Made by a program: the position numbers and the translations under genes. From positions 618,948-682,947 of the forward strand of contig NZ_LT599032.1 in the NCBI RefSeq assembly GCF_900079725.1: 64,000 nucleotides of DNA, read 5' to 3'. The notes under the pieces are model-generated. The model worked only from the letters and a program-made list of their open reading frames with translations. It searched no databases and was not told the DNA's origin. Numbering within the stretch: position 1 is the first letter of the stretch; each line of letters begins with the position of its first letter. This DNA is from an uncultured Dysgonomonas sp. GTDB lineage: Bacteria > Bacteroidota > Bacteroidia > Bacteroidales > Dysgonomonadaceae. This document shows positions 8,137-48,806 of this stretch, one piece after another.

Positions 8137-8378
8137 GTGTCAGGTTTGTCAGATTTTTATACAGTGTCCTTCGTGTAGACCTTTGTGCCCTTTGTGGTAA
8201 GGAGTTTTTAATCATTAAGTACACAAAAAGAAATCACAAAGGGCACAAAGGTGGAAAAATCCGTTACGTTTGTTACTTTTTTGAAATAGTTACAGGTTAC
8301 TGCGCCCTTCGGGCAGTTACAAGTTACGGGTTGATGGCTGTTTACTGTTTACTGAAAAGTGTCAAGTTTGTAAAGTTT
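8137..8378. repeat. cluster of dispersed intergenic repeats
   Basis: The only content of the 550-bp gap after the efflux operon besides the terminator. It holds a GTGTCAGGTTTGTCAG unit (8137-8152), a hairpin whose arms CCTTTGTGCCCTTTGTG (8180-8196) and its exact complement (8235-8251) are separated by 38 bases, a short GC-rich dyad around GCGCCCTTCGGGC, CTGTTTACTG units and a second GTGTCAAGTTTGT unit (8359-8371). The same modules recur near 42700, 48780 and 55720, so these are dispersed repeats and not gene remnants. Confidence 0.75.
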
Positions 8379-18363: not shown

Positions 18364-19032
18364 TTAATATTCGCGTTCTCCAAAAATAGATGAGCCTACC
18401 CTTATCATTGTAGACCCTTCTTCGACTGCTATTGTATAGTCTCCCGACATACCCATTGATATTTCAGAGAAGCAATCATCCTCTGCAAAATAGTCTTTTT
18501 TTATTTCATCGAAGAATAATTTTAAACTTTTAAATTCTTCTCTGATTTGCGATTCCTCTTCGACATTCGATGCCATGCCCATTACTCCTCCAATATAAGC
18601 AAATTTATAATCTTTCCATTGGTTTCCCGATAAGAAACTTCGGCATTCTTCAAAAGAAAACCCAAACTTGGCTTCTTCCTGCGCAATATGAATTTCCAGT
18701 AAACAGCAAATCCGTTTTCCGATACGGGCTGCGGACTTCTCTATTTCGGTCAGCAGTCTCCAGCTATCGACACTGTGTATCGTATGCGTATAAGGTATAA
18801 TCGACTTTACTTTGTTCGTTTGCAGATGTCCTATAAAATGCCATTCTATATCCTGTGGCAGCAAGGGATGCTTTTGGCTGATCTCCTGCATCCGGCTTTC
18901 TCCAAAAATATGCTGACCGGCATTATAAGCCACCCTGATAGCATCAACAGGATGGAATTTAGATACTGCTACCAGTTTTACATTTTCCGGTAAACGTTCC
19001 TTTATGGTATGTATATTTTCGGATATGCCCAT
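18364..19032 (-). CDS. YggS-family PLP-binding protein
   Basis: A 222-residue fold-type III PLP protein (PLPBP/YggS/PROSC family) involved in vitamin B6 homeostasis. The PLP lysine lies in VKLVAVSKFHPVDAI near residue 25. GESRMQE, EWHFIGHLQTNKVK and the C-terminal MGMSGDYTIAVEEGSTMIRVGSSIFG are family hallmarks. The length is normal. It sits between the DUF4494 gene and oxyR in one apparent operon. Confidence 0.94.
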   Translation of the reverse strand: MGISENIHTIKERLPENVKLVAVSKFHPVDAIRVAYNAGQHIFGESRMQEISQKHPLLPQDIEWHFIGHLQTNKVKSIIPYTHTIHSVDSWRLLTEIEKSAARIGKRICCLLEIHIAQEEAKFGFSFEECRSFLSGNQWKDYKFAYIGGVMGMASNVEEESQIREEFKSLKLFFDEIKKDYFAEDDCFSEISMGMSGDYTIAVEEGSTMIRVGSSIFGEREY

Positions 19033-39985: not shown

Positions 39986-41464
39986 CTAGCTAATTATCTT
40001 ATACACCAGCTCCATATCCACATAACTGCGCACATGATCGGCCAGCTTATTATATTGCTCTTCTTTAAAAGCCTTGAAGTCGAACGCCGTATCCGACAGC
40101 TTATCAGCATAGGGAGCCAGCAAATAATCTATAACAGCCCCATTATCAAGAATACCATGTATATATGTACCAAAACATTTCTCATTCAGGAAGTAGCCGT
40201 CAGTACGGCCGTCCTCCAATATATTTAATGGTGAAAGGCTGGTATCTTCCATGGGAATAGTTGCCCCCATATGTATCTCATATCCTTCGCAAACGGTGTC
40301 GGAACCGAGAAAAGAAAACTGCACCTGACGGGTCACTTTTTCTCCTTCCATCTGTGTAGTTACAGGCAGCAAGCCCAATCCGGGCAGACGCTCAATATTG
40401 CTTTCCACATGATTGGGGTCACATACCTCCTGCCCCATTATCTGATAACCACCGCAGATGCCTACTACTGTAGCTCCGTTCTTATGGGCTTTCACAATAC
40501 TTTGCGCTACACCGTTGCGACGCAGTTCGTACAGGTCGGATAGAGTACTCTTGCTTCCGGGAACAAGCACAATATCCGCCTTTTCTATTTCATCCGTATT
40601 ATTGGTATAATACAGATGCACGCGGGGATCACGTTCCAGCACATTGAAATCGGTAAAGTTAGATAAATGACGAAGCAGGATAACAGCCACATTCACCTTG
40701 CCATGTGTTGCCTGCAAATTCTTGGTTTGCAGCATCACTGAATCTTCCTCTTCAATATATATATCCTTATAATAAGGTACCACCCCGATAACAGGGATGC
40801 CGCACAGGTCTTCAATCATTTTCACTCCCGATTCGAAAAGCCTGATATCACCCCGGAATTTATTGATAAGGATGCCTTTTACATGTTTACGTTCTTCCTC
40901 GGTAAGTAACATTACAGAACCATACACCGAAGCGAATACTCCGCCCCTGTCTATGTCCGCTACCAATATTACATTAGCCCCGGCATGTATCGCCATCGGC
41001 ATATTCACAAGGTCTACAGCCCGCAGATTGATTTCGGAGATACTGCCCGCCCCTTCCATTACAATAGGGTTGTACCGCCGGGCCAGACGGTCGAATGCAT
41101 CATTTACTTCCTTCCGTAATTCTTCGCGCCCTTCCACCCTGAAATACTCATAAGCATGCTGGTTTCCCACCGGTTTGCCATTCAACACAACCTGACAAAC
41201 CTTATCCGTTGTAGGCTTCAGTAGCAAAGGGTTCATATCGGTATGGCATGGAACACCCGCAGCCTCGGCCTGAACGGCTTGTGCACGCCCTATCTCAAGC
41301 CCTTCGGGGGTAGCATATGAATTGAGAGCCATATTCTGCGCCTTGAATGGAGCCGGCTGATAACCGTCTTGCAGAAATATGCGGCAAAAGGCCGATGTAA
41401 TAATACTTTTACCTACATCGCTGCCTGTTCCCGCAAACATAATGGGATTGAGCCGTTTCGTCAT
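39986..41464 (-). CDS. cobQ: adenosylcobyric acid synthase (cobyric acid amidase)
   Basis: 492 residues. It amidates adenosylcobyrinic acid a,c-diamide at positions b, d, e and g. The N-terminal P-loop ATPase is FAGTGSDVGKSIITSAFC, with the typical KAQNMALNSY. The C-terminal glutamine amidotransferase domain has the nucleophile loop GICGGYQIMG and the histidine of YIHGILDN. It is the first gene of the minus-strand cobalamin cluster, directly behind a cobalamin riboswitch. It is also called CbiP. Confidence 0.96.
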   Translation of the reverse strand: MTKRLNPIMFAGTGSDVGKSIITSAFCRIFLQDGYQPAPFKAQNMALNSYATPEGLEIGRAQAVQAEAAGVPCHTDMNPLLLKPTTDKVCQVVLNGKPVGNQHAYEYFRVEGREELRKEVNDAFDRLARRYNPIVMEGAGSISEINLRAVDLVNMPMAIHAGANVILVADIDRGGVFASVYGSVMLLTEEERKHVKGILINKFRGDIRLFESGVKMIEDLCGIPVIGVVPYYKDIYIEEEDSVMLQTKNLQATHGKVNVAVILLRHLSNFTDFNVLERDPRVHLYYTNNTDEIEKADIVLVPGSKSTLSDLYELRRNGVAQSIVKAHKNGATVVGICGGYQIMGQEVCDPNHVESNIERLPGLGLLPVTTQMEGEKVTRQVQFSFLGSDTVCEGYEIHMGATIPMEDTSLSPLNILEDGRTDGYFLNEKCFGTYIHGILDNGAVIDYLLAPYADKLSDTAFDFKAFKEEQYNKLADHVRSYVDMELVYKIIS

Positions 41465-41505: not shown

Positions 41506-41529
41506 TATATCCCTGACCCCGGGGATATA
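41506..41529 (-). promoter_or_regulatory. hairpin in the riboswitch expression platform
   Basis: Between the aptamer and cobQ the minus strand has TATATCCC...GGGATATA around an eight-base loop containing CGGGGTCA. It could act in anti-termination or ribosome-site sequestration. There is no clear poly-T after it, so translational control is more likely. Confidence 0.5.
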
Positions 41530-41539
41530 AAAACTGAAT

Positions 41540-41810
41540 ATTTTGTCCGGCAGGTTTCCTGACTTGCTCCATCTTTGAACGGCCTTCCCATTTTCAGTAA
41601 ACAGTTAGCAGTTATCAGTAAACAGTCAAAAAAAACTGTTAACTGATTACTGTATCACTGATTACTGTGAAACAGTGGTATTTGGTATTGCTCAAAGACT
41701 TTTTTCAGAAACATTGTTAACTGAATAGAGACCACAGTAGCGGGCACTGTTCCGGATTCTGACCGGATTCCCTTTTCATGTAAAAGACGAGTGTCTGTTT
41801 ACATCACCAA
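41540..41810 (-). promoter_or_regulatory. cobalamin riboswitch
   Basis: On the minus strand the core elements appear in order: GGGAATCC near 41770, AATCCGG-CAGTGCCCGC-ACTGT (41728-41755), ACCACTG near 41675, TGGGAAGGCCG (41580-41591) and the B12 box AGTCAGGAAACCTGCC (41549-41564). This fits the family's conserved pattern. Between ACCACTG and GGGAAGG lies an unusually long variable hairpin of about 80 bases made of CAGTAAACAGT-type repeats. It precedes cobQ and should repress it in the presence of adenosylcobalamin. Confidence 0.92.
41592..41675. repeat. CAGTAAACAGT repeat hairpin inside the riboswitch
   Basis: CAGTAAACAG and ATCAGTAAACAG units on one side, and ACTGATTACTG, GTATCACTGATTACTG units on the other, with A8 at the turn, give a long imperfect hairpin. 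Related units occur near 8335-8355 and 48777-48805 outside any riboswitch. Confidence 0.7.
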
Positions 41811-41818
41811 AACAGTTA

Positions 41819-41848
41819 CAAAGATAGCTTTTTATTGAGGTTATACAA
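41819..41848 (-). promoter_or_regulatory. promoter of the riboswitch-cobQ transcript
   Basis: On the minus strand TTG (complement of 41846-41848), a 19-base spacer and TATCTTTG (complement of 41819-41826). It lies immediately 5' of the aptamer and overlaps the divergent promoter of the B3/B4 gene. Confidence 0.75.
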
Positions 41849-48776: not shown

Positions 48777-48806
48777 TCAGTAAACAGTTAACAGTAAACA
48801 GCTAGC
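48777..48806. repeat. CAGTAAACAG dispersed repeat units
   Basis: ATCAGTAAACAGTTAACAGT followed by AAACAG, two tandem units, in the gap between the ligase gene and hemW. Related to the units in the cobalamin riboswitch and near 8340. Confidence 0.6.

Follow-up and report, generated by a model that had tools for sequence, protein, structure and literature searches.

The window, by which we mean the whole 64,000-nucleotide stretch analysed here (uncultured Dysgonomonas sp., contig NZ_LT599032.1, positions 618,948 to 682,947), carries the cobyric acid synthase gene cobQ downstream of a cobalamin riboswitch with a heptamer-enlarged apical hairpin. The features are listed below, with positions counted from the first base of the window.

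8337 to 8354, minus strand: dispersed array of the hairpin-type unit
18697 to 18707, plus strand: dispersed hairpin-type unit
39986 to 41464, minus strand: cobQ (cobyric acid synthase; PF07685, PF01656), the predicted regulated gene
41507 to 41529, minus strand: hairpin separating the aptamer from the start codon (predicted fold)
41532 to 41826, minus strand: cobalamin riboswitch aptamer, RF00174 (cmscan 70.2 bits, gathering score 31.5, E 2.8e-15)
41583 to 41678, minus strand: apical hairpin CCACTG...GGGAAGG, 96 nt, enlarged by heptamers
41595 to 41626, minus strand: 3' arm in the RNA, five ACTG units with a 7 nt period
41635 to 41667, minus strand: 5' arm in the RNA, CAGT units with a period of about 7 nt
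41706 to 41723, minus strand: second variable site of the same aptamer, with one CAGTTAACA unit
48778 to 48802, plus strand: dispersed array of the hairpin-type unit

The cmscan match covered model positions 1–189 of 189, which bears out the intact aptamer core described in an earlier note on this DNA, the range of 41540–41848 given there being adjusted to 41532–41826. Between CCACUG and GGGAAGG the match contained 74 nt where the consensus has 4, confirming that this helix is enlarged by repeat units, and the observation as a whole, a full RF00174 riboswitch with a heptamer-built hairpin upstream of cobQ, stands. The second-site CAGTTAACA unit was missing from that account. We assigned the 96 nt hairpin to the P6 accessory region. 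The locus is like the known riboswitch in its full-length aptamer and unlike the known P6 region in that a heptamer found genome-wide makes up its variable hairpin, which paralogues share. The aptamer lies 67 nt from cobQ, a B12-related gene, on the same strand, and the hairpin between them in the predicted fold is possibly the regulatory P13.

The CobQ protein of the window shares 91% identity with its D. mossii counterpart and 90% with that of Dysgonomonas sp. UBA5412. In D. mossii (L066) the 460 bases upstream of cobQ contained no riboswitch recognisable by eye, unlike the window. The genome from which the window was taken (G000; one contig, 5.22 Mb) contains nine RF00174 matches; the other downstream genes include two with TonB-dependent receptor plug domains, one tetrapyrrole methylase (TP_methylase), and genes for an anaerobic ribonucleotide reductase, a ThrE-like exporter and a PFL-like enzyme. 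L034 and L032 are riboswitches upstream of the PFL-like gene and the anaerobic ribonucleotide reductase gene.

Inside the hairpin, CAGTAAACAGTTAGCAGTTATCAGTAAACAGT (41595–41626) and an opposing ACTG array (41635–41667) form an inverted pair. The segment 41585–41685 was predicted to fold at -34.4 kcal/mol compared with -16.6 ± 3.1 kcal/mol for dinucleotide shuffles (z -5.8), with the arms stacked on a native CUGUUU/AAAUGG stem. When the aptamer was folded with and without 41592–41675, as the earlier note had proposed, folding gave no confirmation of an undisturbed core because just 45 outside pairs (of 60 and 63) were common to the two folds, the cut having taken the native stem too and unconstrained folds of long aptamers being unreliable.

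Units of the hairpin type are dispersed both in the window and in the genome. With up to one mismatch, CAGTAAACAGT matched the window 11 times, where 0.93 matches were expected and the richest shuffle gave 4; five of the 11 lie inside the hairpin and six at three other places, overlapping matches within one array not being independent. Matches at 8337–8354 and 48778–48802 place the hairpin units in the same class as the dispersed ones, as had been proposed. The strict pattern CAGTWAWCAGTWAWCAGT gave 35 matches in the genome and none with the reversed control, and a loose three-unit pattern gave 174 overlapping matches (72 forward, 102 reverse) with a control of 0. Chance similarity of the units was ruled out on these counts. 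In the order, four-unit arrays were present in 54 of 295 genomes, with the control pattern also matching in a number of genomes.

Among the printed loci, copies away from riboswitches were mostly one-directional or one-armed, and several adjoined GGTAACA-type repeats. L228, L229 and L230 are composite intergenic repeats of heptamer arrays, GGTAACA-type repeats and a AGAACTCCTTTATACTTATTACTC-type stretch. Of 25 non-riboswitch array loci that were fetched, the 20 scanned had no Rfam match at gathering scores, the remaining five overlapping others, and three non-riboswitch loci with two arms, described below, had no Rfam match up to E 1. On these loci, other structured RNAs were rejected as hosts of the arrays.

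Across 25 genomes of the genus there were 161 RF00174 matches, and 77 distinct sequences were read, namely all listed matches of at least 215 nt, two extra, and the best-scoring ones with loci; weak matches, including the 217-nt below-cut-off G015:C307, lie outside this set. Hairpin ends were set by a regular expression, under which 3 of 78 rows had no hairpin and 75 hairpins remained, L169 probably being cut too long. At least two CAGT motifs in the 5' half together with at least two ACTG motifs in the 3' half were found in 25 of the 35 hairpins of at least 60 nt and in none of the 40 shorter ones. With part of the riboswitches read, array hairpins were present in riboswitches of at least 10 of the 25 genomes. 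Polarity was nearly uniform when pooled over the 35 long hairpins (CAGT 90:1, ACTG 104:3; 194 of 198 motifs conforming). At the second site, which lies between the GCTCT and GTCTTTGAAC strands, CAGT pairs spaced by 7 nt occurred in 19 of the 75 sequences, always in one direction.

Other repeats were also seen in these riboswitches. AGCT-type repeats fill the hairpin instead of CAGT/ACTG in L153 (G006:C2:27465-27766), L154, L033 and L164. In L149 (G015:C343:2455-2499) a palindrome, CTGTTTAAATT...AATTTAAAYAG, lies in what by eye is an apparent P4 loop, and the riboswitch still scores 99.1 bits; this palindrome family occurs at 18 places in 6 of the 25 genus genomes.

In the order as a whole, ACTGNTNACTG near GGGAAGG had matches in 8 of 393 genomes, marking cobalamin riboswitches in G000 and G013 (genus), G156 (same family) and G166 (another family), while the matches in the four other genomes and at L197 of G000 were not riboswitches. 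In 12 order genomes picked for their dispersed arrays, eight had RF00174 (18 matches, two partial), and a heptamer hairpin was clear in two of the 18, both in G166. That dispersed arrays predict riboswitch arrays was thus not supported.

Consensus folds of two groups of hairpins consisted of CAGU:ACUG blocks with small internal loops between them. From the 35 long hairpins, 15 and 11 were hand-picked for the two groups. L038 and L175 were omitted as near duplicates, and L142, L153_27465, L154, L159, L165, L169 and L177, mostly without the array type, were left out by eye. In the two hand-picked alignments 228 of 240 and 212 of 220 cells were paired, compared with 0.11–0.53 when the partner was slid, a comparison that favours the derived structure because the structure came from the same sequences. 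Two-sided changes were found at 0 of 16 pairs in group B and 6 of 20 in group C (five array blocks and one native stem), and since they were few and each was carried by one or two of the 11 sequences, selection on pairing is weakly evidenced. Some long hairpins lacked a fold that beat shuffles (L034, z -0.4; L169, -0.3; L165, -0.7).

The arrays are concentrated in riboswitches. Over the initial 1.85 Mb of the genome, the region where the both-strand match list is complete, 7 of 46 arrays fell within three of five riboswitches against 0.03–0.33 expected, the lower figure taking the whole sequence as usable and the upper 10% of it, fractions of 10–15% being assumed. Counted per riboswitch, three of five with arrays gave P values between 2.9e-6 and 0.0025, according to the usable fraction assumed; these treat paralogous riboswitches as independent, which paralogues are not. 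The enrichment counts arrays of at least three units, so two-unit arms are invisible to it. Opposite-strand arrays no more than 100 bp apart occurred three times in this region, twice in riboswitches.

When a 73-nt hairpin query was searched against G000 and a second genome, G006, all nine whole-query matches lay in riboswitches and the other listed matches were partial, with 40 of 67 and 40 of 115 candidates scored, respectively. A search of the genus with the 96-nt hairpin, in which 36 of 114 and 36 of 184 first-look candidates were scored, gave among the matches listed three followed two-arm matches outside riboswitches, at 73–77% identity, which fold at -16.2, -3.9 and -4.9 kcal/mol; a shorter two-arm match, G015:C274, was also listed. 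Judged by these alignments and within the candidates scored, close two-arm copies were found only in riboswitches.

Flank similarity paired eight of the nine G000 riboswitches with eight in G006, where six loci were compared; L036 had no partner among those six. The cores of the eight syntenic pairs were 0.83 to 0.99 identical. Hairpin identity was 1.00 in two pairs (that at cobQ and one without arrays) and 0.81 and 0.83 in two others, while in the four remaining pairs, with cores at 0.91, 0.83, 0.97 and 0.86, the hairpins had diverged to 0.30, 0.35, 0.48 and 0.19 (lengths 34/86, 43/86, 88/99 and 26/94 nt). The earlier note had held that the same hairpin with unrelated sequence of equal length in related species would speak against insertion, and one of these pairs, away from cobQ, partly answers to that description (L034 and L153_27465, 88/99 nt, identity 0.48). 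From these comparisons the hairpin turns over separately from the aptamer.

The converse was seen within genomes, where three pairs of riboswitches had hairpins 0.99, 0.93 and 0.89 identical on 5' parts of 0.64, 0.47 and 0.71 and 3' parts of 0.74, 0.55 and 0.73. The first pair is that of the cobQ and TP_methylase leaders of G000, whose likeness runs on beyond the hairpin into neighbouring accessory strands, L038 matching the G006 cobQ leader over 176 bases at 96%. The second consists of two divergent G006 riboswitches that share a sharply bounded tract, a 73-base query from one matching the other at 99% with one mismatch; the G006 assembly is a draft in roughly 50 contigs, and shared tracts there could be assembly error. 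A cobQ-like hairpin (0.89) in L170 of G006 is missing from its G000 orthologue, L035. At the level of sequence, it is therefore demonstrated that nearly identical hairpins stand on dissimilar aptamers whose flanks are syntenic. Duplication of whole riboswitches was rejected because the flanks are orthologous and the hairpins do not follow that orthology.

Comparison of the cobQ leader in relatives, as had been suggested, yielded three orthologues (L151, L157 and L177; CobQ identity 94, 93 and 91% over 347–378 residues) with array-less hairpins of 57, 46 and 62 nt compared with 96 nt in the window. These retain single CAGT or GCTG motifs, and L032 by eye resembles a collapsed array hairpin, so the arrays may equally well have been lost or gained. 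Inspection by eye of three orthologue alignments, in which the ACTG repeats hamper judging, showed no target-site duplication.

On this evidence we consider it probable that the loop tolerates length and that heptamer hairpins in it expand, collapse and are copied among paralogous riboswitches while the core stays intact. The apical loop of the accessory region in Dysgonomonas would be the tolerant site, in which CAGT/ACTG heptamers, of the type also arrayed between genes, would have built hairpins with a CAGT 5' arm and an ACTG 3' arm. Their lengths and sequences suggest that the hairpins gain and lose units and sometimes collapse, and they would also be copied among the paralogous riboswitches of one genome, the copying reaction being presumably gene conversion or template switching. 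Tolerance would most likely stem from the hairpin being a self-contained rod. Switching may be mildly affected, by analogy with a published swap of the P6 accessory region, which, as far as the accessible text goes, made one model riboswitch less corrinoid-selective and was overall described by its authors as less conclusive (PMC9600662). More tentatively, the hairpin may be mobile but confined to riboswitches, a heptamer palindrome copied between paralogous accessory stems that would remodel the regulon faster than the aptamers change, possibly altering corrinoid selectivity.

It is rather doubtful that the hairpins reflect functional tuning, with the length of the P6 accessory region or protein binding to it selected for corrinoid selectivity or switching speed and copying serving to harmonise the regulon. 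The pairing polarity kept in 194 of 198 motifs, the 0.99-identical hairpins ahead of cobQ and the tetrapyrrole methylase gene in one genome, and the reduced selectivity of the one swapped model riboswitch in the accessible part of that report (PMC9600662) are all consistent with tuning, yet among orthologues upstream of the same gene the hairpin may be present or absent and varies in length and sequence, and there are few two-sided changes. In our view tolerance is likelier than tuning, because the hairpins of orthologues differ so freely.

Separate entry of a mobile palindromic element (MITE- or REP-like) into each riboswitch from a dispersed pool, close to what the earlier note had put forward, appears unlikely. 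The same units are dispersed in the genome, and a copy of the different palindrome family at 18 places lies in a G015 riboswitch, but whole-length matches were confined to riboswitches within the part of the candidates scored, the three two-arm matches elsewhere are 73–77% identical and fold weakly, and the three orthologue alignments revealed no target-site duplication by eye. Of the proposal that a dispersed repeat was inserted here, the complete core, the shared unit class and the array-less cobQ orthologues agree with it; the single landing of one mobile repeat in one RNA does not survive, given that at least 10 of the 25 genus genomes have riboswitches with array hairpins, that near-identical hairpins are common to several riboswitches, and that dispersed copies are mostly one-armed. 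Local replication slippage with palindrome correction alone and no exchange among riboswitches is very improbable: it would fit the variation of site (a) by whole 7-nt units among some riboswitches, but it cannot yield 73 bases with one mismatch in two riboswitches whose identity is 47% over the 5' part and 55% over the 3' part, and the shared tracts contradict it unless they arose by misassembly.

We compared the hairpin with known repeats. In the accessible part of MacGregor 2015 (PMC4679880), direct repeats of the heptamer TAACTGA are described as mainly intergenic, near start codons in the main species and mixed with related heptamers in some, as present in five Bacteroidetes including Paludibacter, and as differing by 7-nt indels between two Cyanothece strains. 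The unit class and mainly intergenic position are alike (ACTGATA is a rotation of TAACTGA), and tandem 7-nt units in the window's own genome lie far above the reversed control; those repeats are direct, as far as that text goes, whereas the window has an inverted pair of varied units within an aptamer (PMC4679880). We liken the hairpin to this class and do not file it there, because its units are varied and lie in two opposed arms and an exact TAACTGA doublet is absent from it. The word "riboswitch" is absent from the accessible part of that text (PMC4679880). Short tandem repeats (STRR) are described, in the part of the source available, within cyanobacterial RNase P RNA genes (Vioque 1997). 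As far as that source goes, the likeness is of short tandem repeats in a structured RNA gene, in another RNA and another phylum. The STRR units are reportedly heptamers. Among open-licence titles and abstract openings on riboswitches with heptamers, repetitive elements or gene conversion, and on cobalamin riboswitch insertions, there was no such case.

The Dysgonomonas loci thus offer a natural riboswitch series in which the core is much alike and the downstream gene the same while the accessory hairpins differ, which allows what the variable P6 accessory region does to be tested directly. They also place a heptamer class, arranged as an inverted repeat, within an RNA that regulates genes, where it seems to be spreading from one copy of the RNA to another, and by such spread short repeats could reshape regulons.
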